Shown: positions 19,200 through 64,000 of the stretch, piece by piece
Numbering within the stretch: the stretch's first letter is position 1
How the letters are laid out: each line of letters starts with the position of its first letter
Assembly (NCBI RefSeq): GCF_003171515.1
Contig: NC_089399.1
Span: 2,108,001 to 2,172,000, forward strand
DNA length: 64,000 nucleotides
Reading direction: 5' to 3'
Origin: Pyrenophora tritici-repentis
Taxonomy: Eukaryota; Ascomycota; Dothideomycetes; Pleosporales; Pleosporaceae
The notes under the pieces: model-generated
Seen by the model: the letters and a program-made list of their open reading frames with translations, nothing else
The model's database searches: none
Told to the model about the DNA's origin: nothing
Program-made: the position numbers and the translations under genes

Positions 19200-20534
19200 A
19201 TGGCAACAATCCAGACCCAACGGGACGCGACGGTCATCCTCACCGACTCAAGCAACTGGATCCCTTGGTACCGCCAACTTAAGCTGAAATGCCAGTCGCA
19301 AGGCATTTGGCCACTGTTGGACCCCGAAGGAGTGCGACTCCAGCGCATCCAACCGGAGGCTCCGCTACCCCCAGACATTTCGCAGTATGAACCGTCAAGT
19401 AGCCCCTCAGCTGCCTCATCGCATACCACCCGAAACGCTAGAGGCAACACGCGAGGATCAGCACAAGACACTACAGAAATGTCGACAACAACCTCACGAA
19501 TCCCCACTATACCAACGCGAGTGTCAGAACTCTCAGAGAAAGGACAAGAAGCGTATAAGGAGGATCGCGACGACTACAAGCTGCGCCTTGAGTCATACAA
19601 AATACGGGAGAGGGACTATCAAGAAGAAAGCAACAAAATCTCAAAGATGGTCGAACACATCCTTACAACCGTAACACCCCATTTACAACTTAGCTGTTGC
19701 GCCGAGAACGGCACGCCGCGCGACTGGATAACCGCCCTCCAAGACACAGTTGGAGTGGATGAAGACGAGGAGAGAGCGCGAGCACGAGAGAGATACCAAG
19801 CCGCACTCAAGCCAATGCGTTCAACCACAAACTGGGAGACGTGGCTAAATGAATACGATCAGGCTGCAACTCGAGCTGAAACCCTTGAGGTGGCCGAGGT
19901 TATGCAAACACAAGCCGTAATAGACGACTTCCTAGGCTCCGTATCTAAAATGGCATCAACCTGGACCGCAGGGTTCCAAGGGCCAGGGTACGATAAGAAA
20001 GCCATGAATAGGAAAAGGATGATGAAACTCTTCCGTGAATATATGAGTCTTCAATATCCATCAAGAGGGAAGCCAAAGAGCGCCTTCGCGGTAGGAGACT
20101 TATACGCGGCGAGCGGTGAACCCGACTCGGACACACTGAGGGACGCCTCTAGTGTGGAATTAAGAGCGCCATCCAACCAAGGCCGGGGAAACCCTAGGCA
20201 ATCAAACAAACGCAAGATGGATGGTCAAAGTACCAGAACCAAGCAGATCCCGGAGAGGAATTCAGCGAAAGCTGGAGACATATGTCCTGCCTGTGAACAG
20301 CGTCATGAGATATCTGACTGCTACTATGTGAACAAAGCCAAGGCACCTGAATGGTTCAAGCCAAATCGAGGCATCGCAAGATTAGTACAGTACAAACTTG
20401 AAAATGACACCAACTTACAGAGAACGATGCAGGAAATGTCCCCAGAGACTAAACGACCTCGATTCTCGACAACGTCACGATCGATTACACCTCATATCAA
20501 GACATCACAAACACCGGACGCAGTCATTGAATGA
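19200..20534 (+). CDS. Copia A2 gag
   Basis: 444 residues, same protein as 8622-9956 by reading, starting at the ATG following ACGAAA. It ends at TGA 20532-20534, followed by CTAG in a frame that leads into pol. Confidence 0.9.
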   Translation: MATIQTQRDATVILTDSSNWIPWYRQLKLKCQSQGIWPLLDPEGVRLQRIQPEAPLPPDISQYEPSSSPSAASSHTTRNARGNTRGSAQDTTEMSTTTSRIPTIPTRVSELSEKGQEAYKEDRDDYKLRLESYKIRERDYQEESNKISKMVEHILTTVTPHLQLSCCAENGTPRDWITALQDTVGVDEDEERARARERYQAALKPMRSTTNWETWLNEYDQAATRAETLEVAEVMQTQAVIDDFLGSVSKMASTWTAGFQGPGYDKKAMNRKRMMKLFREYMSLQYPSRGKPKSAFAVGDLYAASGEPDSDTLRDASSVELRAPSNQGRGNPRQSNKRKMDGQSTRTKQIPERNSAKAGDICPACEQRHEISDCYYVNKAKAPEWFKPNRGIARLVQYKLENDTNLQRTMQEMSPETKRPRFSTTSRSITPHIKTSQTPDAVIE

Positions 20535-20538
20535 CTAG
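20532..20538 (+). promoter_or_regulatory. In-frame UGA-CUAG readthrough candidate (Copia A2)
   Basis: GAA-TGA-CTA-G. The frame continues without another stop for 13 codons to MKAAFS and through pol. Downstream bases CTCAAGAATTGATGAG could form a small hairpin. Confidence 0.65.
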
Positions 20539-20573
20539 ATGGACGCGAAATCTCAAGAATTGATGAGGGCACG

Positions 20574-23500
20574 ATGAAAGCGGCATTCAGCGCAAGCCAA
20601 CAAGGATATCCATTAAAGGATGCCTTCATCCTGGATTCCGGCTCGACTACGCACATCTGCAACGACCTCTCAAGAATTGAAGACGTACGCCCGTCGACGC
20701 CAGGGGACTACATCTGGGCCGGCAGTTCCAAAGTCTGGATACGAGGATACGGAGCTGTCACATTGACAACAGAGGGATCTCAGGACAAACAAGCCTTGCA
20801 CATTGTCAACGTTGCGTGGTGTCCAGACTTCCTCTGCAGCCTAGTATCATTCAGGCTACTCCGACGACAAGGAATATGGTGGGACAATCGGGAAGATCCA
20901 ACAAGCCTGCGACGATGGGATGGAACAATTATTGCTATCCTATCGGAACGCCATGGGCAATGGATTATCGAAGACACCACTCCATTCGACTCAGCCTTCC
21001 ATGTGCGTATGAATCGAACCAAGCGATCACCACAAAGGGCGACAGCCATGCTATGGCATAAACGACTAGGACATCCAGGGCCATCCGCTATTGAACACCT
21101 CATACAGCAATCTGAGGGGGTGAGGATCAAAGGAATCACCACAGTACAATGTGACGCCTGCGGCAGATCAAAGTCGAAGCGCCAAATAAGAAGGGCGCTA
21201 AGACTAAATGACGAAGGTCCTGGAGAAAGAATTGCAATCGACTTCCATGAGTACGAGGCGGACAGCTTCACTAAGGAAAAGAGTCAGATGCTAATAACTT
21301 GCCGAAACTCCCGATACGTTTGGGATTTCTACTTCAAAGACAATAGGCCAGCACGCTCTATTATTCGCCTATTAGCCCTCTTTATCCAATTTATGAAGAA
21401 ACAGTTCAACATTACGGTCAAGGTCATTGAAACAGACAACGAGATCGTCACAGTTAAGCAAGAAGTCGAGAAATGGTGCACGTCCCTATCAATCAGACTC
21501 GAGCCTTCCGCTCCAGACACACAAGCGCAGAACGGAGGAGCCGAACGCTCAGGGGGTGTGATAAAAGAAAAGGCACGCGCAATTCGACTAGATGCGAATC
21601 TTCCATGGGAACTCTGGCCAGAGATAACCAGAGCGGCGGTATACCTATACAATCGAACGCCAAATTATCCAAACAAGTGGAAATCGCCTTACGAAATATT
21701 CTTCACGCGCGCAGCTGCCACAAATGGCATAGTCACCGGACCCCGAAGACCAAACCAAGCTCATCTGAGAGCATATGGGTGCAAAGCCTTTGCAATGACA
21801 GACGATACCCACCGAGGAAAGTCAAGGCTGCAACGGCTGGACCCAAAAGCCTGGATTGGGTATCTTGTGGGATATCAGTCAACAAACATCTACCGCATCT
21901 GGATCCCATCCATGGCAAAGGTAATCAGCACTCGCGACGTAGTGTTTAACGAAGACACAATCTTCAACGGCAAGACTGAGGACCTAATGGACAATCTTAT
22001 GCACAACACCCTAGAGGAAATCGCAACTTGGGTAAGAACAGTCGAACTCCCAGGTACTCAGAGCCAACAACCAGAAACCGAGACGTTCTACGAGGACGAT
22101 ACGACGCAGGAAGAGAGCCCGCGCACTCAGAAAACCAGATACCACCAAGGAAGGAAGGTGGTAGAGGCATATCTAACCCCGCCACCAACTCCTCCACCTG
22201 TGGCCTTGCTAGTTCAAGGAGAGGTGAACAACGAGGATATGACGAACATGTCCAACCAATCAACATCAATGACCAATCCATGGGCAGCCGCATTCATGGC
22301 CGGCACCGAATCAGGACACATTGGTCAACACGAAGGAAAGCCAATCGACAAGGCTCAGGTGAAGAGACTGCTATCCAAGGGAATCAAGCCCCATCGCAAC
22401 CAGCTACCGCCACTCCCAACAGCATACTCAAAGCTGGAAGACCATCCACTATACGAAATGTTCAAGGAAGCAGAAAAGACACACCTTCAGAGTCACCAAC
22501 AAATGAAGTCATGGACTGAGGTCCAAGCATCACCAGTCAAACGAGCAGGGCACCAGATCCTAGACTGTATGTGGGTATACACCTACAAACTCGACAAGCA
22601 TCACCGCCTCATCAAATGTAAGGCAAGATTGGTGGTAAGAGGAGACCAACAACGCAACATCACCTCCCAAGACACATACGCAGCAACATTGGCAGGACGC
22701 TCATTCAGAATGCTCATGGCAATCGCCGCCAAATACGATCTTGAGCTAAAGCAATACGACGTCACTAATGCTTTTGTGCATGCTGCAATCGACAGAGAAA
22801 TATACATGAGGATGCCAAAAGGGTATCAGAAGCCTGGCACTCTACTCAAAGTGCGAAAGGCACTGTATGGGCTCCGGATCTCACCATTACTGTGGCAGAA
22901 AGAATTCACTGCAACTCTTGCTTCGATAGGGTTTCAACAAATACCACAGGAGCCATGCTGCATGATCAAAGACGGAGTTATCATCTTCTTCTATGTGGAC
23001 GACATCATCGTTGCGTACCATTCAAAGCAAGAATCAGAGGCCATGAAGGCCATCAACCGGATCCAAGAAAAATACGCTTGTACGGGAGGAGATAACTTAC
23101 AGTGGTTTCTCGGCGTAGAGGTCATGCGCAATCGCAAGCAGAAGACCATACAGCTATCTCAAGCCGCATACGCAGACAAAATCAGCCAACTAGCAAGCCG
23201 ACAAGACATCAGACATGACACGCCGATGTCAGGCATGGAACTCAGACCCAGGAGTGACCTAGCAGAGCCGTCCGAGATCAACCGCTACCAGCGCAAGATT
23301 GGCTCGCTTCTATTCGCTGCAGTCACAACAAGACCCGACATAGCCTTTGCAACATCACGACTTGCTCGCTTCCTAGTCAATCCAAGTACAGAACACCAGG
23401 ACGCTGCAGACCGTGTGCTCCTGTACCTCAAGAAAACAGAATCCCTAGCCCTCGAACTCGGTAGAGGCGATGGCTTGAGGTAGCAAGTGACGCATCGTTT

Positions 23501-23771
23501 GCAGACAACACACTAGACAGGAAAAGCTCGCAGGGATACGCAATTAAGCTGTTCGGAGGACTCATCGCTTGGAGAGCAAGTAAGCAAGATACTGTGACAA
23601 CATCAACAACAGAAGCAGAGCTGCTTGCCCTATCACAAGTTGCTAAGGAGGCAATCTTTACGTCGCGGTTGTTGAAGGAGCTTCAGGTAAACCTAAGCAA
23701 TCCAATTATCACAATCAAGTGCGACAATACCCAGACAATCCGTCTAGTAAATGAAGACGTTGCCAAATTGC
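20574..23771 (+). pseudogene. Copia A2 pol, one frameshift and 3' truncation
   Basis: Protease, integrase (D223, D288, E324) and RT (YVDD at codons 807-810, bases 22992-23003) are all in one frame from 20574. At about 23474 a C is missing against Copia A1, which brings a stop at 23483. RNase H goes on in another frame (with STTEAE) until the MITE-L junction at 23772. The native start is probably the gag ATG with readthrough; MKAAFS at 20574 is the first ATG. Confidence 0.9.
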
Positions 23772-23933
23772 TAGACTCCGCAACAATCAATTCAATCCGG
23801 TCACTCTCCTAGACCCACTTACCTATCTAGGTAGGGCTTAAACTCCTATAGGTAACTACTAGGCTTAAAGCGGTAATCAATCAATCCAATCTGAACCTTC
23901 TAGGACCCACTTAATTGATTGTTGCGGACTGTG
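23772..23933. mobile_element. MITE-L at the Copia A / Copia B junction
   Basis: 162 bp, same as 18681-18842. The flanks are CAAATTGC and GCTGTACG, which do not match, so there is no target duplication. Left is Copia A RNase H; right is Copia B RT from an earlier point of pol, so the junction is not homologous at the Copia level. Confidence 0.88.
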
Positions 23934-24418
23934 GCTGTACGGCCTACGGATCTCGCCATTGCTCTGGCAAAGACACTTCACTGCCTTCCTTCTAGAAATC
24001 GGGTTCTCGCCAGTTCCCACGAACCTTGCTGCATGATCCGAGACGGAGTGTTCATCTTCTTTTATGTTGATGACATTATCCTTGCCTCTTCGAAACGGCA
24101 CGCGGAAGTAGCTCGGAAAGGAAGAGGAACTGAAACAGCGATACAACCTGACCGGAGGAAAGGATTTGCAGTGGTTTTTAGGAGTAGAAGTTATACGGGA
24201 CCGAGAGAAGCGAAAGATCTGGCTGTCACAGAAAGCTTATGTTGAGAAGATTGCACGGCTGGCAACGAACAAGGACCAACGACACAACACACCAATGGCT
24301 AGAGTCGAACTAGTTGCACGTGAGGGTTTGGCGACTCCTGGAGAGATTAACTTGTATCAACGCAAGATTGGATCGTTACTCTTCGCCGCCGTCAACACCC
24401 GACCCGATGTCGCATTCC
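23934..24418 (+). pseudogene. Copia B RT fragment (left arm), frameshifted
   Basis: Against the right-arm copy it lacks one C (near 24018) and two bases near 24118, so the frame breaks twice. YVDD is recognisable near 24067. The right-arm copy (59114-59601) is open over the same stretch. Confidence 0.8.
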
Positions 24419-24545
24419 CAGACTCCGCAACAATCAATCGGATCGGCATGATTGATTCCTATCTAGGTTAAAGGCTGCCTATAAAGTAACTCTTTAACCT
24501 ATATAGGAATCAATCATGTCGATCGATTGATTGTTGCGGAGTCTG
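24419..24545. mobile_element. MITE-S in Copia B (left arm)
   Basis: 127 bp with the 8-bp duplication CGCATTCC (24411-24418, 24546-24553). It has one T less in the loop than its right-arm partner. Confidence 0.92.
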
Positions 24546-25220
24546 CGCATTCCCAGTATCACGACTCGCCCGGTTCCTCACAAACCTGGTCCACTACATC
24601 AAGAAGCCGCTGACCGAGTGCTGTTGTACCTGGAGTCAACCAAGCTTCTATCCTTATCATTCGGAGGAGACGACCAATTGGTAGTAGCTAGCGATGCATC
24701 CTTTGCGGACAACACCGCGGATCGCAAGAGCTCCCAAGGGTACGTTATCAAGCTATTTGGAGGACTGATCGCATGGAGGGCGAACAAACAAGATACCATC
24801 ACGACATCTACGACCGAAGCAGAACTCCTCGCGCTATCGCAAGTGGCTAAGGAGTCCATGTTTGTGCGGATGCTGCTAGAGGAGCTTCGGGTAGAGTTGA
24901 CGGAGAAGACAATTACGATACAGTGCGATAATACGCAGACGATCCGGCTGATCAACGAGGAGATCTCTCAGCTGACGACGAAACTCCGTCACGTGGACAT
25001 CCACAATCACTGGCTGAGGCAAGAGGCAAAGCGAAAGTCTATCAGAGTCGTGTATGTACCGTCTGGCGAAATGCTCGCCGATGGTTTCACGAAGACCCTG
25101 CCTGCCAACAACTGGCCCCAGTTCTTGACGCAGGTCGGACTGGTTGAAGTGAAGGAACGAGACGTAGAGGAAGCAGATCCAGAGGAAATTCTGGAGAAGA
25201 TGGAAAGTCTTGTTATATAG
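24546..25220 (+). pseudogene. Copia B RNase H fragment (left arm)
   Basis: It carries VVASDASFADN (first catalytic Asp), STTEAELLALSQ (Glu), CDNTQTIRL (Asp) and LRHVDIHNHWLRQE (His/Asp end), then the stop at 25220. It is a complete Copia RNase H C-terminal domain, but is separated from RT by MITE-S. Confidence 0.85.
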
Positions 25221-25286
25221 TCCGGTATGAATGTCGGAAAGACCACTCCACCTCAGGCTGCCGAGGAGCGCCGAGCTGAGGGGGTG

Positions 25287-25611
25287 TGTCAGATTGAGGC
25301 GAGGTTTTGCTCCATGATCGAGCCGATGGTGGTTGGGGAAGGACATGAGACCCCCAAACCAGGGCTAGCGCCGGGACTTAGCACTGCCAAGCCCGAGGCG
25401 AGGCCACCTCCACAGACAGAGCCGTAGACAGACACAGAGAATACACACTTGATCCATCCATAAAATCTGACAATTGTTGTGTGTGTTGCAGTCTTGCGAG
25501 GGATGAGGCGGTAGTCTGGCTTGTCCTAGTCCTTCTTGGGACTAGGGGGTCTATGGAACGTGCTATCTTCAACTCCGCTCCCTTCTACCAAATACTACCT
25601 CATATCTGACA
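25287..25611 (+). repeat. Copia B 3' LTR (left arm)
   Basis: It starts TGTCAGATTGAGGCG next to the polypurine tract and ends CATATCTGACA. An internal AATCTGACA at 25464-25472 is a possible earlier end. The right-arm partner (57916-58243) is 3 bp longer because of homopolymer differences. Confidence 0.72.
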
Positions 25612-25717
25612 CCAAGCCTTACTGTGATCCGATTGGCTCTCACAGATGCCGGGTCGCGCTAGTCTAACCTAGCGTCTGTACGCTCTCATCTTCAACAGTG
25701 CTATTATCTAACAACAT
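25612..25717. other. LTR-like flank, part 1
   Basis: About 106 bp of non-coding sequence between the Copia B LTR and X2. With 27274-27459 and 29014-29209 it forms one ~515-bp sequence split by X2 and X3. Its outer end, TATCTGACA at 29209, looks like a Copia LTR tip related to family A. Confidence 0.45.
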
Positions 25718-25730
25718 CATTCACAGTGTA

Positions 25731-27260
25731 TTATTATTATTATATTTCCATTAGAGTCCTGTATCAGTCGGTGACTATGTAGGACTTTGGCTAAGCCGTT
25801 CTATGTATGTTGTTCAATATGGAGTTTCTATAGGTCTTGTACAATTTGGAGGATAGTTGCGTAGTCCAATTTCCGAGCTAGTCTTCCGTTGGCGCGGGTG
25901 CTAAAGAGCAGTGTGGTGAACAGAAAGAGATGTAACAGCGAGCTCTTTGCGAAAAGAAATATTGTTTGTAGTTTTATACAGTGTCTGTCTGTTGTTTTGT
26001 GTAGGCGTCTGTATATAGGGATCTACAAGAGAGAGAATAGATCTATACATCTAGTGCCTGGTCGATGTTTTGCTCGTGCGTGTGCTAGTGAAAGCAGGTG
26101 CTGGAGCGGTTCGGTATATGGGGTCGGTATATCGAGTCGGTTTAGGGCGTTCGGTAGAGAGGGTATTTGGTGTAGGCGTCTGTATATAGGGATCTACAAG
26201 AGAGAGAATAGATCTATACAGCTATTGCCTAGTCGATGTTTTTGGGCGTTTTGGTGTAGGCGTCTGTATACAGGGATCTATTATAACCTAACAATAATAG
26301 ACCTATACAGCTATTGCCTAGTCGATGTTTTGCTCGTGCGTGTGCTAGTGAAAGCAGGTGCTAGAGCGGTTCGGTATATGGGGTCGGTATATCGAGTCGG
26401 TTTAGGGCGTTCGGTGGAGAGGGCGTTTTTGGTGTAGGCGTCTGTATATAGGGATCTACAAGAGAGAGAATAGATCTATACAGCTATTGCCTGGTCGATG
26501 TTTTGCTCGTGCGTGTGCTAGTGAAAGCAGGTGCTAGAGCGGTTCGGTATATGGGGTCGGTATATCGAGTCGGTTTAGGGCGTTCGGTAGAGAGGGCGTT
26601 TGGTGTAGGCGTCTGTATATAGGGATCTACAAGAGAGAGAATAGATCTATACAGCTATTGCCTGGTCGATGTTTTGCTCGTGCGTGTGCTAGTGAAAGCA
26701 GGTGCTAGAGCGGTTCGGTATATGGGGTCGGTATATCGAGTCGGTTTAGGGCGTTCGGTGGAGAGGGTATTTGGTGTAGGCGTCTGTATATAGGGATCTA
26801 CAAGAGAGATAATAGATCTATACATCTAGTGCCTGGTCGGTGTTTTGCTCGTGCGTGTGCTGGTGACAGCAGGTGCTGGAGCGGTTCGGTATATGGGGTC
26901 GGTATATCGAGTTGGTTTAGGGCGTTCGGGTATAGGTAGCATCTAGATATATAGGCCTATTACTTTGCAGCAATAGAGATATATACCTAAGGAAGAGCCG
27001 TTGCTCTGTCGGTTTCGTAGAGGGTGCCTTCGATCGAACATCTAAAATCAGTTGGCGCACGGGCCATTTGCAGAGATTTCTCTCAACTAAGGCCAGGTAA
27101 CAACTCTGTCAAAGTTGCAGCGGCCAGCGCGCCCGCCACAACGCCTGCACGCAAAAGCAGACGTTGGAAACTGATTCTAGGAAGGCATTTCAATGGAATT
27201 GAGATGAAAAAAGGGTAATCCAGGACCTTTTTGTCATCTCGAAAAGTTGGTGTTCGATGT
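25731..27260 (-). mobile_element. X2: X element present only in the left arm
   Basis: It is 1,530 bp, sense minus: the 5' start is at 27260 (ACATCGAACACC) and the (TAA)n tail at 25731. The 13-bp duplication CATTCACAGTGTA flanks it (25718-25730, 27261-27273). VNTR unit starts are near 25999, 26168, 26253, 26431, 26602 and 26772. The right arm has the single empty site at 57797-57809, so X2 arrived after the palindrome formed. Confidence 0.94.
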
Positions 27261-27273
27261 CATTCACAGTGTA

Positions 27274-27459
27274 CTTAGTGCACAAGGTGCCAGATCTAAC
27301 AAAACCCTTACCCCAACTACGAACACAAAACCCTTACACTATTAACCCTATTTGTGGGCGAACAACAGAAAGGAGAGAACTGGTTGATCATTCTACTGAG
27401 TAGAGATGTGTGCTTATATACATAAGATATACATGAGTACATGACGTAGATAGTAGAGT
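27274..27459. other. LTR-like flank, part 2
   Basis: Non-coding sequence between X2 and X3, including short runs such as AAAACCCTTAC. They are not telomere repeats. I see no gene. Confidence 0.4.
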
Positions 27460-27472
27460 GGTGAAGGTTGTA

Positions 27473-29000
27473 TTATTATTATTATTATATTTCCATTAGA
27501 GTCCTGTATCAGTCGGTGACTATGTAGGACTTTGGCTAAGCCGTTCTATGTATGTTGTTCAATATGGAGTTTCTATAGGTCTTGTACAATTTGGAGGATA
27601 GTTGCGTAGTCCAATTTCCGAGCTAGTCTTCCATTGGCGCGGGTGCTAAAGAGCAGTGTGGTGAACAGAAAGAGATGTAACAGCGAGCTCTTTGCGAAAA
27701 GAAATATTGTTTGTAGTTTTATACAGTGTCTGTCTGTTGTTTTGTGTAGGCGTCTGTATATAGGGATCTACAAGAGAGAGAATAGATCTATACAGCTATT
27801 GCCTGGTCGATGTTTTGCTCGTGCGTGTGCTAGTGAAAGCAGGTGCTGGAGCGGTTCGGTATATGGGGTCGGTATATCGAGTCGGTTTAGGGCGTTCGGT
27901 AGAGAGGGTATTTGGTGTAGGCGTCTGTATATAGGGATCTACAAGACAGAATAGATCTATACAGCTATTACCTAGTCGATGTTTTGGGCGTTTTGGTGTA
28001 GGCGTCTGTATACAGGAATCTATTATAACCTAACAATAATAGACCTATACAGCTATTGCCTAGTCGATGTTTTGCTCGTGCGTGTGCTAGTGAAAGCAGG
28101 TGCTAGAGCGGTTCGGTATATGGGGTCGGTATATCGAGTCGGTTTAGGGCGTTCGGTGGAGAGGGTATTTGGTGTAGGCGTCTGTATATAGGGATCTACA
28201 AGAGAGATAGTAGATCTATACATCTAGTGCCTGGTCGGTGTTTTGCTCGTGCGTGTGCTAGTGAAAGCAGGTGCTAGAGCGGTTCGGTATATGGGGTCGG
28301 TATATCGAGTCGGTTTAGGGCGTTCGGTGGAGAGGGTATTTGGTGTAGGCGTCTGTATATAGGGATCTACAAGAGAGATAGTAGATCTATACATCTAGTG
28401 CCTGGTCGGTGTTTTGCTCGTGCGTGTGCTAGTGAAAGCAGGTGCTAGAGCGGTTCGGTATATGGGGTCGGTATATCGAGTCGGTTTAGGTCGTTCGGTG
28501 GAGAGGGCTTTTGGTGTAGGCGTCTGTATATAGGGATCTACAAGAGAGATAATAGATCTATACATCTAGTGCCTGGTCGGTGTTTTGCTCGTGAGTGTGC
28601 TGGTGACAGCAGGTGCTGGAGCGGTTCGGTATATGGGGTCGGTATATCGAGTTGGTTTAGGGCGTTCGGGTATAGGTAGCATCTAGATATATAGGCCTAT
28701 TACTTTGCAGCAATAGAGATATATACCTAAGGAAGAGCCGTTGCTCTGTCGGTTTCGTAGAGGGTGCCTTCGATCGAACATCTAAAATCAGTTGGCGCAC
28801 GGGCCATTTGCAGAGATTTCTCTCAACTAAGGCCAGGTAACAACTCTGTCAAAGTTGCAGCGGCCAGCGCGCCCGCCACAACGCCTGCACGCAAAAGCAG
28901 ACGTTGGAAACTGATTCTAGGAAGGCATTTCAATGGAATTGAGATGAAAAAAGGGTAATCCAGGACCTTTTTGTCATCTCGAAAAGTTGGTGTTCGATGT
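27473..29000 (-). mobile_element. X3 element (left arm)
   Basis: 1,528 bp, same architecture as X2, with the 13-bp duplication GGTGAAGGTTGTA (27460-27472, 29001-29013). Unit starts are near 27745, 27913, 27994, 28171, 28342 and 28513. It is present in both arms, so it predates the palindrome. Sense-strand order: a unique 5' segment of about 300 bp, VNTR, LINE-like 3' end of about 230 bp, (TAA)n tail. Confidence 0.93.
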
Positions 29001-29013
29001 GGTGAAGGTTGTA

Positions 29014-29474
29014 GAAGATGCTAGAAGATCTGATAAGAGTATCGGGCTGACGCACAGACGCCCAACTGTGTTGGCTGACATACTAATTGGAGTATAGAAG
29101 CTCTTAGCACCCCTCTCCTGTAGATCTAGTACGCAGAGACACTCAGACACAAGACATAATTAATTATCAACATCCATTAGTTTATCACAATATCTTATCA
29201 TATCTGACAGCATCACATACTAGGTCCGTATCCCACAACCTAATATTTCTACTCCTACTCCTACTCCTACTATTCCGCGAGGGACTCCATCTCAACTTTC
29301 ATCACGAAGCGAGCAGATAGTACGAGAAAGATTGAGGAAGGTAAATTCTTATTGCTTATCATCAGAAGGGTGGATGATGCCATGTTACCTATCCTCGCGC
29401 AGTGCTTTTTATAGAAAGCTTCGATGACTAAGCTGTATATTCAGTGCCGGAGCACTTACCACGGCACAATACTC
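29014..29474. other. LTR-like flank, part 3, and downstream region of the secreted-protein gene
   Basis: The first part ends TATCTGACA at 29209 and matches Copia A LTR style (TGTCAGATATGATAAG on the other strand). 29210-29474 is non-coding, with a CTCCTA tandem run at about 29248-29273. It should hold the 3' untranslated region of the minus-strand gene at 29475. Confidence 0.45.
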
Positions 29475-30245
29475 CTACTCCAACTCGTGAACGACCAACT
29501 TCGAGTCCTCTCCCGGCGCGACCTCTTCCTCCACACCATTTGAACCAATATACTTCAATATCTTTGCAGTAGCATATCCTTCAATCAATGCCGATGATCC
29601 TCGAACGACGCAATACCGGATTATGTCGCCTGGCTTTATTACATGTTTCGTCGAAACTTGGTTGGAATTGACGTCATGCTGAATGCTCTGGTCATTCAGG
29701 TAGATGTCCGCCTGATAGACTTGCGTCTTTTGCCCAGTAGTACCCCAATACGTGGCGAAAAATTCAGCAAGAACTGACCGTGCGCCTTTGTTTAGGTACG
29801 AAATTCTGTTGGAGCAATAATTTGCGTAGTTTTGACCTGTCGTCTGCCGGGTACCAATTGCCCATTTTACCAGGTTCTGGCTAGGGACACAGTCCACGTC
29901 GTAAGTTCTTAGGCCTTTCCAGTTAACAACTTCTTCGCGCTGTTCGCAAAGCGTTCCAATAGGGCAATAACTCTGTACTGTAGTTTTATGCGGGACATCC
30001 TCCTGTTCACATATGACAGAAAAGCTTCTATCCAGAGCCCAGTCACATGCAGCCGAGGTAGGCCTCCAAGTTCCTTGGCTTTCATGGATCTTTCCTAAGC
30101 ACCAGTCTTTATCGGTAGTAACTTCCCGTTTGAAGAGGTTGGCGGCGACGGGCGCTGGTGTAAAGTTGTTGATGTTGCCAGGAGGTATAGCAGCGGCTAG
30201 GGCGAAGAACATCGCCACGTAGATAAAAACGGCGTTGGTTATCAT
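29475..30245 (-). CDS. Secreted cysteine-rich protein, candidate effector (left arm)
   Basis: 256 residues in a single exon. An N-terminal hydrophobic segment (residues 4-20, ending ALAAAIPPG) is a clear signal peptide; LFKR at about 35-38 is a candidate Kex2 site, so a propeptide is likely. Eight cysteines follow in the mature part, enough for four disulfides, and no transmembrane segment is seen. Two copies exist, one per arm (other at 54825-55595), with the same residues. I do not recognise the family. Small, Cys-rich, secreted and in repeat-rich DNA are usual effector traits, but function is not shown. Confidence 0.82.
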   Translation of the reverse strand: MITNAVFIYVAMFFALAAAIPPGNINNFTPAPVAANLFKREVTTDKDWCLGKIHESQGTWRPTSAACDWALDRSFSVICEQEDVPHKTTVQSYCPIGTLCEQREEVVNWKGLRTYDVDCVPSQNLVKWAIGTRQTTGQNYANYCSNRISYLNKGARSVLAEFFATYWGTTGQKTQVYQADIYLNDQSIQHDVNSNQVSTKHVIKPGDIIRYCVVRGSSALIEGYATAKILKYIGSNGVEEEVAPGEDSKLVVHELE

Positions 30246-30500
30246 TATTGCTAGAATAACGATAGAAATAGATGTAGTTGTGAATTCTTTTTAAGAGCCT
30301 TCGAAGAAAGCTATAAATAAAGTTAGAAACATGTATAGTAGTGTAGTGTTAGTAGAAAGTTTAGAAATACTTACAACTAGTAGAAACAATGTTAAGGGAC
30401 TGTTGTTTAAAGTCGTTTACGAACAAAAAGCGCGGTATGTAGATAGGTCTCTGTGGTGCGGTATTAGCTAGTAGCTAGAGTATATATATACTCGTTTCTA
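30246..30500. promoter_or_regulatory. Intergenic region between secreted-protein and TPR genes
   Basis: It is AT-rich and lies upstream of the secreted-protein ATG at 30245, with the 5' leader just before it. A TATATATA run at 30481-30490 lies nearer the TPR stop. No ORF. Confidence 0.45.
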
Positions 30501-32175
30501 TTAATTAAGTAAGTGTGTTACGATCCCTGGAGATTGACGCCGGTAAGCATGTGGGGGGTGCTTACGTCCAAGCGCCTTCTCGTATCCTTCCATCGCTCGA
30601 CAATGCATCGCTTCGGCCTCCTCGTACTTTCCCTGGCTTTCCCACACTAACCCAAGCTCGCTGACGCTTGTGAGCGTATCTAGGTGCTCTCGCCCAAGCA
30701 CCTCCTCGTATCCTTCCAGCGCTCGACAGTGCATCGCTCAGAGATGGCAACAAGCCGGCCAAGCTGCTATCAAGCCAAATGTGGCCCCTGCTTACTAGCC
30801 TTGTCGATCAACCACAGGTCTACAAGAGAACCGTGCCACCCCTCTATCTAGGTATAGCTATACCTATATATTCTAGGCCGCTAGTGAGCAGGGGCCACAT
30901 TTGGCTTGATAGCAGCTTGGCCGGCTTGTTGCCATCTCTGGCATCGCTTCGGCCTCCTCGTACTTTCCCTGGCTTTCCCACACTAACCCAAGCTCGCTGA
31001 CGCTGGTGAGCGTGTCTGGGTGACCTTGCCCAAGCACCTCCTCGTATCCTTCCAGCGCTCGACAATGCATCGCTTCGGCCTCCTCGTACTTTCCCTGGCT
31101 TTCCCACACTAACCCAAGCTCGCTGACGCTTGTGGGCGTATCTGGGTGCTCTCGCCCAAGCACCTCCTCGTATTCTTCCAGCGCTCGACAGTGCATCGCT
31201 TCGGCCTCCTCGTACTTTCCCTGGCTTTCCAACACTAACCCAAGCTCGCTGACGCTGGTGAGCGTGTTTGGGTGACCTTGCCCAAGCACCTCCTCGTATT
31301 CTTCCAGCGCTCGACAGTGCATCGCTTCGGCCTCCTCGTACTTTCCCTGGCTTTCCAACACTAACCCAAGCTCGCTGACGCTGGTGAGCGTGTTTGGGTG
31401 ACCTTGCCCAAGCACCTCCTCGTATCCTTCCAGCGCTCGACAGTGCATCGCTTCGGCCTCCTCGTACTTTCCCTGGCTTTCCCACACTAACCCAAGCTCG
31501 CTGACGCTTGTGGGCGTATCTGGGTGCTCTCGCCCAAGCACCTCCTCGTATTCTTCCAGCGCTCGACAGTGCATCGCTTCGGCCTCCTCGTACTTTCCCT
31601 GGCTTTCCCACACTAACCCAAGCTCGCTGACGCTTGTGGGCGTATCTGGGTGCTCTCGCCCAAGCACCTCCTCGTATTCTTCCAGCGCTCGACAGTGCAT
31701 CGCTTCGGCCTCCTCGTACTTTCCCTGGCTTTCCAACACTAACCCAAGCTCGCTGACGCTGGTGAGCGTGTTTGGGTGACCTTGCCCAAGCACCTCCTCG
31801 TATCCTTCCAGCGCTCGACAGTGCATCGCTTCGGCCTCCTCGTACTTTCCCTGGCTTTCCCACACTAACCCAAGCTCGCTGACGCTTGTGGGCGTATCTG
31901 GGTGCTCTCGCCCAAGCACCTCCTCGTATTCTTCCAGCGCTCGACAGTGCATCGCTTCGGCCTCCTCGTACTTTCCCTGGCTTTCCCACACTAACCCAAG
32001 CTCGCTGACGCTTGTGGGCGTATCTGGGTGCTCTCGCCCAAGCACCTCCTCGTATTCTTCCAGCGCTCGACAGTGCATCGCTTCGGCCTCCTCGTACTTT
32101 CCCTGGCTTTCCAACACTAACCCAAGCTCGCTGACGCTGGTGAGCGTGTCTGGGTGACCTTGCCCAAGCACCCTC
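30501..32175 (-). pseudogene. TPR-repeat protein fragment, NLR-type (left arm)
   Basis: About 11 to 12 tandem repeats of 42 residues (126 bp) of the kinesin-light-chain TPR type, core GKYEEAEAMHCRALEEYEE plus LGREHPDTPTSVSELGLVW. In fungal STAND/NLR proteins such near-identical TPRs form the ligand-sensing C-terminus behind an NB-ARC domain. No NB-ARC is here: the 5' side ends at MITE-L (32176). MITE-M plus its duplication (210 bp, 70 codons) keeps the frame but brings in a stop; the last two repeats end at 30501. Two repeat types alternate in a higher-order pattern. Confidence 0.82.
30739..30940. mobile_element. MITE-M, 202-bp hAT-type MITE in the TPR gene (left arm)
   Basis: Long inverted ends of about 54 bp start CAGAGATGGCAACAAGCCGG. 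The 8-bp duplication GCATCGCT lies on both sides (30731-30738, 30941-30948). Confidence 0.92.
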
Positions 32176-32337
32176 CACAGTCCGCAACAATCAATTAAGT
32201 GGGTCCTAGAAGGTTCAGATTGGATTGATTGATTACCGCTTTAAGCCTAGTAGTTACCTATAGGAGTTTAAGCCCTACCTAGATAGGTAAGTGGGTCTAG
32301 GAGAGTGACCGGATTGAATTGATTGTTGCGGAGTCTA
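32176..32337. mobile_element. MITE-L at the TPR / unknown junction (left arm)
   Basis: 162 bp. The flanks (GCACCCTC and CAGCTCCT) do not match, so no target duplication, as at 23772. One side is the TPR array, the other an unrelated non-coding stretch. Confidence 0.88.
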
Positions 32338-32773
32338 CAGCTCCTGCCTACACAATCCAATTACATAGCAAAATGCTTCATCGGTTGACAGCTTCCCAAG
32401 ACTAGCATGGCAGACTTGGCAATAACAGGCCCTTTCACAGCTTACGAAGCCTGCAGCGGAAAGGCCTCTTACTGAACACTACGCCGATCGGAGTCATGTA
32501 GGGCAGCACCGCAGGTTTGGTAAGGTGATGAAGCGATCAGGAAGTGGCAAGCGCTGTGGCGATGTGCTCAAATCAAAGCTAACTCTAATAGGCGCAGTCA
32601 CCGAACGGAAGATTTACGCTTATGCAAGGAAGGGCGGGGGTTATCCCTACATGATAGGAGGTTCCCAAAGTAGGTTAGATTTGGACACCCACAGCAGGTA
32701 TTCAAATCTAAACTACTTTTAGGATCCCCCTTCAACTGAACTCGCGAACACCACTGCCCATCTTCTGGGAGAA
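32338..32773 (+). promoter_or_regulatory. Upstream region of gene A with a small foldback repeat (left arm)
   Basis: No ORF with support. At 32659-32730 an imperfect inverted repeat of about 26 bp arms (GGTTCCCAAAGTAGGTTAGA against the opposite arm at 32702-32728) lies 43 bp before the gene A ATG. It may be a very small MITE; no clear duplication is seen. Confidence 0.5.
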
Positions 32774-32910
32774 ATGGCACCTTCAGAGCGTCAAGAGGAG
32801 TTGAGAAAAGCATTAAGCTTGTGCAAGCCATCCGATGTCATTGAGAACGAAGTTAGTGCTCCCTTTCGAATCAGTGTGGGTATGATTTAACAGTACCTAG
32901 GCCCTGCTCC

Positions 32911-38276: not shown

Positions 38277-38377
38277 TGCTAGTGATGGGAGAACGAATGG
38301 TAAAAGTTTTCGCTGATGTGGTAAAGAGTTTTCGGTGCAGTGCGGGGCAATCTACTACTAAATATATGCATGTGCAA

Positions 38378-38654
38378 TTACAGAGAGACACTGTATAAAA
38401 CTAAAACCACAACCCTCTCCTTTGCCACAAGAGCCCGCTGCTACATCTCTTTCTACTTATCAAACTGCTCTTTAGCACCTGGCAACAAACAGATACAAGC
38501 TATCTTTTGTAGAAAAGCCAAAAACCATATTAGCGAACCATACCAGAAAACCATGTAAATTAGAAAAACCAAGATAGAACGGCCTTCGGCCAAAGTCCTA
38601 CATAGTCTCTGACTGAAAAAGGACTCTAATGGAATAATAATAATAATAATAATA
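38378..38654 (+). mobile_element. 5'-truncated LINE 3' end, 277 bp (left arm)
   Basis: It matches the LINE 3' untranslated region, but of a diverged subfamily (CTCTGACTGAAAAAGGACTC in place of CACCGACTGATACAGGACTC), and ends in (AAT)n. It is flanked by the 14-bp duplication ATATGCATGTGCAA (38364-38377, 38655-38668). Confidence 0.88.
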
Positions 38655-49000: not shown

Positions 49001-52000
49001 CAGACTTGTCATTAAGCAAATCAAACAAACTTTGGACGCTGATTTGATTTGTTTGTACAAAACTTAAGATTGTATTTGAGTTGTTTAGTTTGATAGTGTT
49101 TTAGGAGGCCGTTTGTTTGAAAGTTTGATAGATTTGATACTGTTTAGGTGCTGATCTAATCGTATATCGTATATATTACTAAGCTTCGCTGTCCCACTTG
49201 CATATTTCGTATATTGCAGCTACCTCAGCGTCAGTTACATCGCCTGAGTTGTAATCAGATGGAGGCTTAAAGCCAGCGTCGCGCCAGCTTCGTATACACT
49301 GTATTGCTGCAAGCAGTTGTGACCCAATTTTGCGTCGCCTTGGCTCTAATAAATCACCGAGCTCGCTGAACAGCCGCTCGCACTCACAACTTGAGGCTGG
49401 TATTGTTAATATATCGATCGCCATACGCGCTAGGTTAGGATACTTTGGGCGTAGGCTTATCCAATAGCTAACAGGATTACTACCTTGTTCGAACTGCTCC
49501 TGCGTCCAGCGGAGTTCAAACCGTCGCCAACGCTCCAGCTCATCCATCTCTGTCACCTCAACAATGCCATAAGGCTCCGCATTAACGAGCGCGTTGATGG
49601 CGTCGTTGATACCACTTGAGAGCCGCACTGGTGGGCGACTTTGGCGCTGTATTTGCGGCTTATAGAACGCCCAAAGTTGTTTCAACCCAGCGTTGTTTGC
49701 CTCAAGCCAGCTCGGTTTGTCGCGCCAGCTGTTCTCACAGTAGTTCTTGTAGTATGGGTGGAGGCAGGTAGCGGCAAAGTATGCGGGTGATTCGTCGAGC
49801 TTAGTGTAATACGCGTTAAGCTTTGCCCAAGCTGCGCGTAGGTTGATAGGAAGGTGATCTTCTGGCGCGCTATTGGCATTATAGTCGACGCTTTCGTGGT
49901 TTTTAAGTAGCTGCTCGTACACGGCAAGTACAGCTTCGAAGACAGGTATAACCTCGTATATCGCGCCGAAACGGCCAGCTTTACCGCGAGCTTCAAGCCG
50001 TTTTGTCGCCTCCTTTAGCGGCTCCAACACTGATATATACTGGGTTATTACCGCCCAATCGTCAGCCGTAAGCCCATTAGATCTCATCCAAGCTGGTACT
50101 TTAGTGAGCTTATTGTTACGGCTACGCGCGTACGCGTCGGCGCCCATCGTCCTTTCGATGTGGCTTTGGGCGTACTCATCAACGGCGTTATGGAGTTTTG
50201 CGGCGCGTACAAAGGTGTCGTGAAAGCTGTTCCAGCGCGTGACGACTGGCTTTACCGGCTCGAGTATTTCCTGCTTTTGGTCGGGAGCCTTAGCGTTAAC
50301 ACGGCGCTGGCAATCGGCAAAAAGATCGTGTTGTTGCGGTGTTTGGATGTAGTTGATGATATCGATTAGTACACCAAGCGGACCTTGCTGCCGCCATTCT
50401 TGTAGGTAGGCTGCCTCTGTTTTGTGCTCGTCCTGATCATTATCGTACGCGTCCTTATCAAAGCCGAAGATAATCATCTGTCCGACTAAGTTAAGTGTGT
50501 GAGGGCCGCAGCGGAGGCGGTGATGGCTTGCTGTAAATTCAAAGCGTTGGGCGAGTTTGGTGACGGCGGTGTCATTAGCGTACGCGTTGTCGAGCACAAA
50601 GTACCCAAGCTGGCTACGTGTTATACCGAAGACATCGATTATATTGCCAACAACTTCAGCTATCCTCTCGCCCGTGTGGGCGCCCGTAAGCTGAGGCAGC
50701 GCGATAGGTAGGTCCCTGATAGTGCCGTCGGCGTCAGCAAAATGAGCAACAACTCCAAAGAAGCCGCGCTTGCCGCCTTTTGTCGTCCAGCCATCGAAGC
50801 TTATATGGATTTTACTAATAGCCGACGAGAGCATCTGAACAACCTGCGGCTCCATATAGCGATACAGCCTCATCACGAAGCTAGCTACACTGTTGTGACT
50901 TACCCACAGCGCGTCAGCTGCCTCCGGGTTGGCAAACTCTATCATCTGCCTAAACGCAGGCGTTTCGAACTCGCGGAGAGGGTGGTTATTGTCGACAAGC
51001 CACGTAACAGCGGCGTATCGAAAGCGCTGTACGTCGAAGTTTCCGAGCTCGTTAGCGACGCCTTGAGGTACATCGACACCGCCCTCGGTCATCATCTTAA
51101 GCGTCGTTTGGCCTCGCGGTAGTGTAATCGAATCCAGTTTGCCCTTGCGATCGTAGCCGTGGCCAAGTAGCTTCTGCGCGAGGTGGTTGATAGCGTTACT
51201 GGTCGACTTTGTAACCTCTGGATAGGCGCAAAAGATCTTACGATGATGGCAGTATTTGCAAACAAAGAACGTACGATGAGGCTCACGGAGAGAGGCAACG
51301 CGGTAACCGTACTGATATACCCAACTTTTGTTGCGCTTCAACGTACGCAGCGGCTTCGTAAAACGCGGTAAACGCTTCCAATCAATGCCGTCAAAGTTGT
51401 CCGTAAACTCGTCATCAAAGCCAGTATCATCCCCGCCTTCGATAGCCTCACTTGTAGCCTCCGTAGCAGCCCTACTACCCTCGGCCGGCGGTTGTATAGT
51501 AGCTTCTGGTATAGCGTCGCGCAACTGCGACTCGAACGGCGCGTCTTCGGTGGCCTGGCTTGCTGCAGCAGCTAGGGCTTTACGTGGCGAGGTGCGGATA
51601 GACAGCTCAGGCTGCGAATCGTCCATCAGGATAGGCTGCGATGCACTGCCTTTAGCTGTTTTGGCGCGCTTGTGGGGGCCGTGGGGGCCGGGGGTGCCCT
51701 CGGCGGCGCGTTTTAGGTTACGAAGCGGCATTTTCGGCGTGTTGGGCAACGAGAAACACTAAAACGTGCTGTAGAGACGGTAGTGTAGCTGCAAAAGATG
51801 GCTAACAGCGATATAGAAGATGGGAGATGGGATATAAGATAGCGGTCATCGACGGCTAGCGACGCTCGTGTAGTTATATGATGACTAAGCTAGATGCAAC
51901 ACAAGAAAACTATCGCGAAATTGCTACCTCCGCTATCTCAAAAACATCATTAAAGTCGATCTTAAAGCACCTTAGGACATCATCTATAGAACAGCTCGCT

Positions 52001-54824: not shown

Positions 54825-55595
54825 ATGATAACCAACGCCGTTTTTATCTACGTGGCGATGTTCTTCGCCCTAGCCGCTGCTATACCTCCTGGCAACATCA
54901 ACAACTTTACACCAGCGCCCGTCGCCGCCAACCTCTTCAAACGGGAAGTTACTACCGATAAAGACTGGTGCTTAGGAAAGATCCATGAAAGCCAAGGAAC
55001 TTGGAGGCCTACCTCGGCTGCATGTGACTGGGCTCTGGATAGAAGCTTTTCTGTCATATGTGAACAGGAGGATGTCCCGCATAAAACTACAGTACAGAGT
55101 TATTGCCCTATTGGAACGCTTTGCGAACAGCGCGAAGAAGTTGTTAACTGGAAAGGCCTAAGAACTTACGACGTGGACTGTGTCCCTAGCCAGAACCTGG
55201 TAAAATGGGCAATTGGTACCCGGCAGACGACAGGTCAAAACTACGCAAATTATTGCTCCAACAGAATTTCGTACCTAAACAAAGGCGCACGGTCAGTTCT
55301 TGCTGAATTTTTCGCCACGTATTGGGGTACTACTGGGCAAAAGACGCAAGTCTATCAGGCGGACATCTACCTGAATGACCAGAGCATTCAGCATGACGTC
55401 AATTCCAACCAAGTTTCGACGAAACATGTAATAAAGCCAGGCGACATAATCCGGTATTGCGTCGTTCGAGGATCATCGGCATTGATTGAAGGATATGCTA
55501 CTGCAAAGATATTGAAGTATATTGGTTCAAATGGTGTGGAGGAAGAGGTCGCGCCGGGAGAGGACTCGAAGTTGGTCGTTCACGAGTTGGAGTAG
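54825..55595 (+). CDS. Secreted cysteine-rich protein, candidate effector (right arm)
   Basis: Same 256-residue product as 29475-30245. The leader before the ATG (54781-54824) is AC-rich and free of upstream ATGs, and the context AATAATG is reasonable. The divergent spacer to the TPR fragment is 255 bp. Confidence 0.82.
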   Translation: MITNAVFIYVAMFFALAAAIPPGNINNFTPAPVAANLFKREVTTDKDWCLGKIHESQGTWRPTSAACDWALDRSFSVICEQEDVPHKTTVQSYCPIGTLCEQREEVVNWKGLRTYDVDCVPSQNLVKWAIGTRQTTGQNYANYCSNRISYLNKGARSVLAEFFATYWGTTGQKTQVYQADIYLNDQSIQHDVNSNQVSTKHVIKPGDIIRYCVVRGSSALIEGYATAKILKYIGSNGVEEEVAPGEDSKLVVHELE

Positions 55596-56069: not shown

Positions 56070-57597
56070 ACATCGAACACCAACTTTTCGAGATGACAAA
56101 AAGGTCCTGGATTACCCTTTTTTCATCTCAATTCCATTGAAATGCCTTCCTAGAATCAGTTTCCAACGTCTGCTTTTGCGTGCAGGCGTTGTGGCGGGCG
56201 CGCTGGCCGCTGCAACTTTGACAGAGTTGTTACCTGGCCTTAGTTGAGAGAAATCTCTGCAAATGGCCCGTGCGCCAACTGATTTTAGATGTTCGATCGA
56301 AGGCACCCTCTACGAAACCGACAGAGCAACGGCTCTTCCTTAGGTATATATCTCTATTGCTGCAAAGTAATAGGCCTATATATCTAGATGCTACCTATAC
56401 CCGAACGCCCTAAACCAACTCGATATACCGACCCCATATACCGAACCGCTCCAGCACCTGCTGTCACCAGCACACTCACGAGCAAAACACCGACCAGGCA
56501 CTAGATGTATAGATCTATTATCTCTCTTGTAGATCCCTATATACAGACGCCTACACCAAAAGCCCTCTCCACCGAACGACCTAAACCGACTCGATATACC
56601 GACCCCATATACCGAACCGCTCTAGCACCTGCTTTCACTAGCACACGCACGAGCAAAACACCGACCAGGCACTAGATGTATAGATCTACTATCTCTCTTG
56701 TAGATCCCTATATACAGACGCCTACACCAAATACCCTCTCCACCGAACGCCCTAAACCGACTCGATATACCGACCCCATATACCGAACCGCTCTAGCACC
56801 TGCTTTCACTAGCACACGCACGAGCAAAACACCGACCAGGCACTAGATGTATAGATCTACTATCTCTCTTGTAGATCCCTATATACAGACGCCTACACCA
56901 AATACCCTCTCCACCGAACGCCCTAAACCGACTCGATATACCGACCCCATATACCGAACCGCTCTAGCACCTGCTTTCACTAGCACACGCACGAGCAAAA
57001 CATCGACTAGGCAATAGCTGTATAGGTCTATTATTGTTAGGTTATAATAGATTCCTGTATACAGACGCCTACACCAAAACGCCCAAAACATCGACTAGGT
57101 AATAGCTGTATAGATCTATTCTGTCTTGTAGATCCCTATATACAGACGCCTACACCAAATACCCTCTCTACCGAACGCCCTAAACCGACTCGATATACCG
57201 ACCCCATATACCGAACCGCTCCAGCACCTGCTTTCACTAGCACACGCACGAGCAAAACATCGACCAGGCAATAGCTGTATAGATCTATTCTCTCTCTTGT
57301 AGATCCCTATATACAGACGCCTACACAAAACAACAGACAGACACTGTATAAAACTACAAACAATATTTCTTTTCGCAAAGAGCTCGCTGTTACATCTCTT
57401 TCTGTTCACCACACTGCTCTTTAGCACCCGCGCCAATGGAAGACTAGCTCGGAAATTGGACTACGCAACTATCCTCCAAATTGTACAAGACCTATAGAAA
57501 CTCCATATTGAACAACATACATAGAACGGCTTAGCCAAAGTCCTACATAGTCACCGACTGATACAGGACTCTAATGGAAATATAATAATAATAATAA
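56070..57597 (+). mobile_element. X3 element (right arm)
   Basis: Mirror of 27473-29000. Sense is plus here: ACATCGAACACC at 56070, tail (TAA)n ending 57597, 13-bp duplication TACAACCTTCACC. Confidence 0.93.
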
Positions 57598-57796
57598 TAC
57601 AACCTTCACCACTCTACTATCTACGTCATGTACTCATGTATATCTTATGTATATAAGCACACATCTCTACTCAGTAGAATGATCAACCAGTTCTCTCCTT
57701 TCTGTTGTTCGCCCACAAATAGGGTTAATAGTGTAAGGGTTTTGTGTTCGTAGTTGGGGTAAGGGTTTTGTTAGATCTGGCACCTTGTGCACTAAG

Positions 57797-57809
57797 TACA
57801 CTGTGAATG
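57797..57809. other. Empty target site for X2 (right arm)
   Basis: TACACTGTGAATG is present once, the reverse complement of the 13-bp duplication that flanks X2 on the left arm. The flanking sequence is continuous (57598-57915), so X2 was never here. Confidence 0.93.
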
Positions 57810-57915
57810 ATGTTGTTAGATAATAGCACTGTTGAAGATGAGAGCGTACAGACGCTAGGTTAGACTAGCGCGACCCGGCATCTGTGAGAGCCAATCGGAT
57901 CACAGTAAGGCTTGG

Positions 57916-58243: not shown

Positions 58244-58309
58244 CACCCCCTCAGCTCGGCGCTCCTCGGCAGCCTGAGGTGGAGTGGTCTTTCCGACATT
58301 CATACCGGA

Positions 58310-62961: not shown

Positions 62962-62996
62962 CGTGCCCTCATCAATTCTTGAGATTTCGCGTCCAT

Positions 62997-63003
62997 CTAG
63001 TCA
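62997..63003 (-). promoter_or_regulatory. In-frame UGA-CUAG readthrough candidate (right arm)
   Basis: Same stop and context as at 20532-20538, in the third copy. Confidence 0.65.
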
Positions 63004-64000
63004 TTCAATGACTGCGTCCGGTGTTTGTGATGTCTTGATATGAGGTGTAATCGATCGTGACGTTGTCGAGAATCGAGGTCGTTTAGTCTCTGGGGACATT
63101 TCCTGCATCGTTCTCTGTAAGTTGGTGTCATTTTCAAGTTTGTACTGTACTAATCTTGCGATGCCTCGATTTGGCTTGAACCATTCAGGTGCCTTGGCTT
63201 TGTTCACATAGTAGCAGTCAGATATCTCATGACGCTGTTCACAGGCAGGACATATGTCTCCAGCTTTCGCTGAATTCCTCTCCGGGATCTGCTTGGTTCT
63301 GGTACTTTGACCATCCATCTTGCGTTTGTTTGATTGCCTAGGGTTTCCCCGGCCTTGGTTGGATGGCGCTCTTAATTCCACACTAGAGGCGTCCCTCAGT
63401 GTGTCCGAGTCGGGTTCACCGCTCGCCGCGTATAAGTCTCCTACCGCGAAGGCGCTCTTTGGCTTCCCTCTTGATGGATATTGAAGACTCATATATTCAC
63501 GGAAGAGTTTCATCATCCTTTTCCTATTCATGGCTTTCTTATCGTACCCTGGCCCTTGGAACCCTGCGGTCCAGGTTGATGCCATTTTAGATACGGAGCC
63601 TAGGAAGTCGTCTATTACGGCTTGTGTTTGCATAACCTCGGCCACCTCAAGGGTTTCAGCTCGAGTTGCAGCCTGATCGTATTCATTTAGCCACGTCTCC
63701 CAGTTTGTGGTTGAACGCATTGGCTTGAGTGCGGCTTGGTATCTCTCTCGTGCTCGCGCTCTCTCCTCGTCTTCATCCACTCCAACTGTGTCTTGGAGGG
63801 CGGTTATCCAGTCGCGCGGCGTGCCGTTCTCGGCGCAACAGCTAAGTTGTAAATGGGGTGTTACGGTTGTAAGGATGTGTTCGACCATCTTTGAGATTTT
63901 GTTGCTTTCTTCTTGATAGTCCCTCTCCCGTATTTTGTATGACTCAAGGCGCAGCTTGTAGTCGTCGCGATCCTCCTTATACGCTTCTTGTCCTTTCTCT
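63001..64000 (-). CDS. Copia A gag, partial (right arm)
   Basis: The C-terminal part of gag, including CPACEQRHEISDC. It runs off the window; the expected start would be about 335 bp further on. Confidence 0.88.
   Translation of the reverse strand, partial: EKGQEAYKEDRDDYKLRLESYKIRERDYQEESNKISKMVEHILTTVTPHLQLSCCAENGTPRDWITALQDTVGVDEDEERARARERYQAALKPMRSTTNWETWLNEYDQAATRAETLEVAEVMQTQAVIDDFLGSVSKMASTWTAGFQGPGYDKKAMNRKRMMKLFREYMSLQYPSRGKPKSAFAVGDLYAASGEPDSDTLRDASSVELRAPSNQGRGNPRQSNKRKMDGQSTRTKQIPERNSAKAGDICPACEQRHEISDCYYVNKAKAPEWFKPNRGIARLVQYKLENDTNLQRTMQEMSPETKRPRFSTTSRSITPHIKTSQTPDAVIE

Follow-up and report, generated by a model that had tools for sequence, protein, structure and literature searches.

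How does a chromosome come to carry tens of kilobases of DNA followed by its own inverse copy, and is such a structure a natural rearrangement or a product of assembly? The window analysed here is a 64,000-nucleotide stretch of Pyrenophora tritici-repentis DNA (2108001-2172000 of contig C10, NC_089399.1; window position 1 is its first letter). The genome searched is 40.9 Mb in 41 contigs, named C1, C4, C10 and so on. Self-comparison reveals a giant palindrome, a stretch of 30-39 kb and its own inverse copy forming near-perfect mirrored arms. A sequence-only reading had claimed a giant palindrome with a 37-bp spacer (42517-42553) and arms of at least 21.4 kb. The palindrome is present in the assembly, and its arms are longer than that.

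Two near-identical arms and an empty site

The arms and their outer extension run as follows.

11653-42516, + strand: left arm up to the mirror of a 60-N gap, 30,864 bp including a 1,544-bp left-only insertion
42554-71876 (in-window part 42554-64000), - strand: right arm, which stops where the 60-N gap begins
3771-11652, + strand: outer extension of the left arm, of which 3771-4643 and 4738-4866 are mirrored just past the gap (72870-71937)
36000-41000, + strand: arm stretch with a full-length match at two places only, one per arm, among the 42 matches listed (best 40 of 405 candidates)

Self-comparison gives two inverted identity pairs, 27260-42516 with 57810-42554 and 11653-25733 with 71876-57793. 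The pairing first proposed, x + x' = 85070, is valid between 27260/57810 and the centre, where the arms show 1 substitution and 0 indels. Outward of 25733 the mirror persists but the sum shifts to about 83529, through 19535/64000 to 11653/71876. The sole difference in the inner part is A/G at 42349/42721. The outer part (11653-25733) has 0 substitutions and only 1-2 base indels, mostly in short homopolymers, so that the arms overall differ by 1 substitution in about 29.3 kb aligned. These figures support the earlier suggestion that the inverted duplication is recent; a fold-back duplication should leave just such long arms, inverted and nearly identical, about a short spacer. When mirror sequence past the gap is included, the arm limits become 3771 and 72870; the remainder of 3771-11652 is without a counterpart in the assembled right side. 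Within the 36000-41000 stretch lies a dispersed repeat of ~280 bp (38379-38658, and its mirror), found at 37 other places at 99-100% (best 40 of 405 candidates).

We checked 18 arm difference sites against copies elsewhere in the genome sequence, overlapping loci possibly being counted twice. At the A/G site the right-arm base has 11 matches and the left-arm base 0. The remaining 17 comprise one edge of the left-only insertion and 16 indels of 1-2 bases, for which copies elsewhere carry the longer form alone in 9 cases, both forms in 1 (3 longer, 1 shorter) and neither in 6. The indel differences match the pattern that long-read deletion errors falling in either arm would leave.

Another difference between the arms is a retroposon-like element, here named X1 (X2 in the sequence-only reading).

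25729-27260, - strand (from its (TTA)n end): X1, retroposon-like, ~1.53 kb, confined to the left arm, 171-bp repeats inside, flanked by a 14-bp target duplication, TCATTCACAGTGTA
57793-57810, - strand: empty site of X1 in the right arm, precise, with a single copy of the target site
27474-29000, - strand: X2, the same element, 98.1% identical to X1, mirrored at 56070-57596, target duplication TGGTGAAGGTTGTA

Both differences that had been reported between the arms, the left-only element and the A/G site, are thus present. Because X1 is filled on the left and faces a precise empty site on the right, the arms are two DNA copies and not one locus read twice; the argument that real differences speak against a read-level artefact stands on X1, its target duplication and this empty site. 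A deletion in the right arm between target duplications would give the same picture, and the arms would still be separate DNA unless the culture was mixed. X elements in general are ~1.53 kb long, with a (TTA)n end, 171-bp internal tandem repeats and 14-bp target duplications, and look like a non-autonomous retroposon. X1 is 99.84% and 100% identical to the two parts of a further copy, X3 (4301-10910), as expected of a young insertion. We rejected a tandem collapse between X1 and X2: it would remove a 1,745-bp period, whereas the right arm lacks 1,544 bp and retains the 213 bp that separate the elements.

The arms also carry genes, each mirrored.

29475-30245, - strand: ORF labelled an effector-like candidate in the sequence-only reading, 256 aa, no Pfam match, mirrored at 54825-55595
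33321-35891, + strand: hAT transposase ORF, 856 aa, with a C-terminal Dimer_Tnp_hAT domain, mirrored at 49179-51749

The 256-aa protein is identical to a P. tritici-repentis protein cluster with 15 members. The palindrome does double this candidate, with a copy in each arm, but the gene is not confined there: a third copy of the segment 28999-30940 lies at C10:4253563-4255504 (99.85% over 1,942 bp), about 50 kb from the far telomere. That copy adjoins another inverted repeat, of 126-bp TPR units (C10:4256013-4257690, 97.2%). In the arms, 30873-32171 and its mirror hold 9.8 x 126-bp units that encode TPR repeats, with a second frame open too. A 321-aa ORF at 36716-37681, also mirrored, has no Pfam match and a DNA relative of 75% at C5:1413147-1414355. 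The claim that the structure doubles two intact hAT transposases was overstated. Only the 33321-35891 ORF and its mirror look complete; the ORFs of the central hAT, 396 aa in the left arm and 414 aa in the right, break off at the MITE described below, and a Pfam scan of the 396-aa ORF gave no match.

A hairpin MITE at the palindrome centre

The centre of the palindrome is a whole short element, set between two inverted copies of a truncated hAT.

42457-42613, unstranded: hairpin MITE, 157 bp, perfect 60-bp stems, exact palindrome centre
42517-42553, unstranded: MITE loop, which is the palindrome spacer, 37 bp
41069-42456, + strand: truncated hAT on the left, from its outer terminal repeat up to the MITE, the rest of the element being absent there
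42614-44001, - strand: mirror copy of the truncated hAT, same extent, inverted

As expected of a fold-back duplication, the centre is a pre-existing short inverted repeat and the spacer is its loop. A MITE copy at window 80594 has 158 bp, 59-bp stems and a 40-bp loop, flanked by 8-bp duplications. The central MITE is one base shorter, with a single C in place of CC where stem meets loop, perhaps as a scar or through a sequencing error. Its predicted single-strand fold has an energy of -80.7 kcal/mol (z -21.2), which none of 200 shuffles equalled. The element is multicopy, with 40/40 scored candidates 100% identical to the 80594 copy (best 40 of 111). It has terminal inverted repeats, and its target duplications are CGAAGGTG on C4 and TAGACAAG at window 80594.

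A hAT-type MITE has terminal inverted repeats, 8-bp target duplications and a high copy number, and is too short for a transposase. By its terminal inverted repeats, 8-bp duplication and many near-identical copies, the element would be classed as one, and it shares the non-coding length of such MITEs. Unlike the usual hAT-type MITE, it is nearly all stem, forms a strong predicted hairpin and in one copy centres a giant palindrome.

The hAT part of the palindrome occurs at 37 further places at a rounded 100% (best 40 of 199 candidates). A genome search allowing at most 2 mismatches found the junction from the MITE into the remainder of the hAT at 2 places, both on C4, where two full hAT elements carry the MITE at the same site. 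The continuation expected of the left chromosome (chromosome A) therefore seems to be absent from the assembly, although telomere arrays also occur on contigs outside the chromosomes. The two C4 elements are full-length, inverted and about 1.8 kb apart (C4:3080678-3088418). Their MITEs keep one absolute orientation despite the inverted hATs, and the loop seems to have flipped. Since these copies show both orientations relative to the hAT, we did not rely on loop orientation to tell which arm is the original. A hairpin formed at the element end during hAT excision was rejected as well, the palindrome centre being inside the element.

The gap, the outer junction and the chromosome 10/11 fusion

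The right arm ends to the base at a gap of 60 N (71877-71936), and the 194 kb examined around it contain no other N run. A mirrored arm that ends at a gap is also what an assembly artefact would give. Such an artefact would further be expected to lack true arm differences and to be followed by sequence unrelated to the arm. Instead, X1 faces an empty site, and the contig past the gap starts with a 934-bp mirror of 4866 to 3771, ending at 72870. Compared with the left, these 934 bp have 0 substitutions once the 171-bp repeats are set aside; simple repeats hold two indels, 14 gap letters in all, and the 171-bp units differ in number between the two sides. For 3771-4320 in full length, the right flank is the sole other match among the 49 listed (best 40 of 443 candidates). 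The left counterpart of the gap is 6.8 kb long and includes an element at 4922-10165 with the target duplication GCTAG, called Copia-like from the look of its ORFs.

The mirror ends at a short repeat.

3771-3798, + strand: 28-bp repeat, whose mirrored copy at 72843-72870 is the recombinant-looking outer junction

Outside the repeat, the right flank resembles C5 (98.4% over 185 bp in a short C5 piece; 96% over 1,109 bp); inside it (72843-72870), the right flank is left-arm sequence. The left-arm arrangement across the repeat is also found on C1 (98.8% over 330 bp) and the outer arrangement on C5, so the right junction looks derived, or recombinant. The 28-mer occurs 4 times exactly in the genome and 6 times with at most 1 mismatch. 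Joining of the duplicate's outer end at a shared repeat is again as expected of a fold-back duplication, where the different chromosome as partner is taken from the published fusion. Homology between the outer flanks (-12657..-8790 vs 91987..88146, 97%) was left unused as a sign of shared subtelomeres, because the 1.2 kb searched has more copies on C5 and C9.

The M4 authors describe M4 chromosome 10 (4.31 Mb) as a fusion of chromosomes 10 and 11 (PMC8353772, and the available part of PMC5913888). The 60-N gap lies at 2.18 Mb of the 4.31-Mb chromosome 10 and splits C10 into 2,179,876 and 2,126,057 bp; the two DW5 contigs that match M4 chromosome 10 are of 2.18 Mb each (PMC8353772). From these sizes, we infer that the gap marks the fusion point. 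The palindrome site agrees with the published 10/11 fusion if, as we infer, the assembly is that of M4 and the site that of the fusion. The available part of the M4 assembly description gives Canu 1.0, about 18x corrected reads and Illumina polishing. A published optical map (100x molecules, 10 maps) is reported to show a chromosome 10 that corresponds to 10 and 11 fused.

Other isolates differ. In DW5, chromosome 10 is separate and carries a telomere at each end (PMC8353772), and PMC8403381 reports a break at the fusion site in Ptr134. The V1 paper, in its available part, confirms rearrangements of chr1, 2, 3 and 7 and not of chr10, and mentions breaks in chr10 in ambiguous wording.

At the sequence level, no array of at least 4 exact telomere repeats lies inside C10, and an interstitial-telomere reading is therefore not supported. 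Contigs C16, C20, C26 and C30, outside C1-C10, carry telomere repeat arrays and are possibly missing chromosome ends. There is no AT-rich, centromere-like block at the site (G+C 0.445-0.53 in 5-kb bins from -60 to 134 kb). A stable chromosome fusion needs one centromere to be lost or silenced.

A proposed fold-back duplication and its alternatives

The mirror arms, the MITE centre, the empty site and the 28-bp junction are present in the sequence. We read them, with slightly better than even confidence, as a natural fold-back inverted duplication marking a chromosome fusion. The order of events, the enzymes and a dicentric intermediate are reconstructed from the product, and the assembled centre and the fusion are taken to be real, which is the main point of doubt. 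Chromosome A would have broken close to a hAT element carrying the hairpin MITE. The exposed single strand would have paired with itself through the MITE stems and served as primer for synthesis back into the arm; alternatively, a replication fork may have reversed direction at this point. Replication of the hairpin-capped end would yield a long inverted duplication about the MITE loop. Some 38 kb out from the centre, the duplicated arm would then have broken or come to an end and been joined to a chromosome B at the shared 28-bp repeat, forming the fused chromosome 10. Sequence of A beyond the MITE and of B beyond the 28-mer would have been lost. Later, the retroposon-like X1 would have entered the left copy.

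Several results argue for this duplication. A hairpin MITE occupies the centre with single-base precision, only 1 substitution separates about 29.3 kb of the arms, the right-arm empty site is precise and the 28-bp junction looks derived. The contig past the gap is the mirror of 4866-3771 and then C5-like sequence across the 28-bp repeat, the site agrees with the published 10/11 fusion and the expected continuation of A seems absent from the assembly. Against it stand the end of the right arm at the 60-N gap, as a contig-end fold-back artefact would also give, the about 18x corrected reads behind the M4 assembly, and the 934 bp past the gap, which show more length change than 29 kb of arms. The reported Ptr134 break, the ambiguous V1 chr10 breaks, the unfused chromosome 10 of DW5, the lack of a four-repeat telomere array inside C10 and the four telomeric contigs outside C1-C10 also count against it.

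Much of this adverse evidence would fit a misjoined centre, which we hold to be possible though unlikely. The segment would really exist at an end of both chromosomes A and B, and the two would have been connected by scaffolding or by a hairpin-type chimeric read at the MITE, making the palindrome, and perhaps the 10/11 fusion, a product of assembly. The arm that ends at the gap, the low-coverage assembly, the isolates that break here or are unfused and the telomeric contigs outside C1-C10 are all in keeping with such a join, and palindromic long-read chimeras are known after whole-genome amplification (available part of PMC6218980). However, the continuation that would then be expected, MITE followed by the remaining hAT sequence, occurs nowhere but on C4 (at most 2 mismatches). 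A misjoin through read overlap also requires far more shared sequence than a 60-bp stem. The optical map is reported to have chromosome 10 as fused 10 + 11.

A two-step subtelomeric history would yield the same two junctions, and we regard it as improbable. Chromosome B would have copied the end of A outward from the 28-bp repeat by break-induced replication, and the MITEs of the two ends would later have been the site of an inverted recombination that fused the chromosomes. The orientation of the 28-bp junction is as expected of end capture, and the one-arm insertion and the length changes past the gap agree with copies that spent some time apart. But such a history needs inverted recombination at 60-bp stems despite 38 kb of adjacent, directly alignable homology, and with just 1 substitution in about 29.3 kb the copies can hardly have evolved apart for long.

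A pure read-level artefact, in which one locus was read back through a hairpin to give the right arm, would explain the near identity, the contig-end position and the 1-2 base indels, of the long-read error kind, at 16 of the 18 difference sites, but we set it aside as very improbable: the precise empty site of a 1.5-kb element largely refutes it, unless the culture was mixed for the insertion, and past the gap the mirror continues and then passes into other sequence at the 28-bp repeat.

The preferred fold-back duplication has parallels. In yeast, according to PMC10622511, a fold-back duplication is seeded where a natural inverted repeat lies close to a break; hairpin-capped and dicentric intermediates follow, and repeat-mediated translocation or centromere loss stabilises the product. 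The anatomy here matches this in both its centre and its outer end: a large inverted duplication seeded at a natural inverted repeat, with its outer end joined to another chromosome via a repeat. It differs in that the seed is a whole hairpin MITE, the event natural, the organism a filamentous fungus and the partner described as an entire second chromosome. The kind of event is already known from a wheat pathogen. In Zymoseptoria tritici, the available part of PMC3681731 describes a chromosome 17 fusion that starts a breakage-fusion-bridge cycle, and a very large palindrome within a chromosome 14 insertion. Both cases concern a fungal wheat pathogen, with inverted duplication, subtelomeric fusion and a palindrome beside transposable-element remnants. 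In Z. tritici, on the same partial text, an accessory chromosome underwent sister-chromatid fusion, as read from depth and gels, whereas here two chromosomes and base-level junctions are at issue.

The M4 10/11 fusion (PMC8353772; PMC5913888, available part) concerns the same assembly and place, on our reading of both. Its literature, where available, names LTR-rich regions and breakage-fusion-bridge cycles in general, whereas here a MITE-centred palindrome lies at the site. The string 'palindrom' has 0 occurrences in the main texts of three P. tritici-repentis genome papers, M4's included, and among the open-access titles listed in a literature search none concerns a P. tritici-repentis palindrome or a MITE-centred palindrome.

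As a long shot, the hairpin MITE in a highly copied hAT could be a recurrent seed of fold-back duplications in this fungus, its palindrome having preceded or caused the 10/11 fusion. It could then account for further segmental duplications of alternating strand in this species, for example the reported ones around ToxB, near hAT transposases, in DW5; M4 is reported to carry its ToxB cluster at the opposite (5' distal) chromosome end (PMC8353772).

If the centre is a misjoin, the reference chromosome needs correction. The mirrored DNA at the fusion site suggests how the chromosome fusion may have happened. If the centre is real, it would provide base-level junctions for a natural intraspecific chromosome fusion, tied to a transposon hairpin, and would relate the fold-backs studied experimentally in yeast to changes of karyotype in a crop pathogen.
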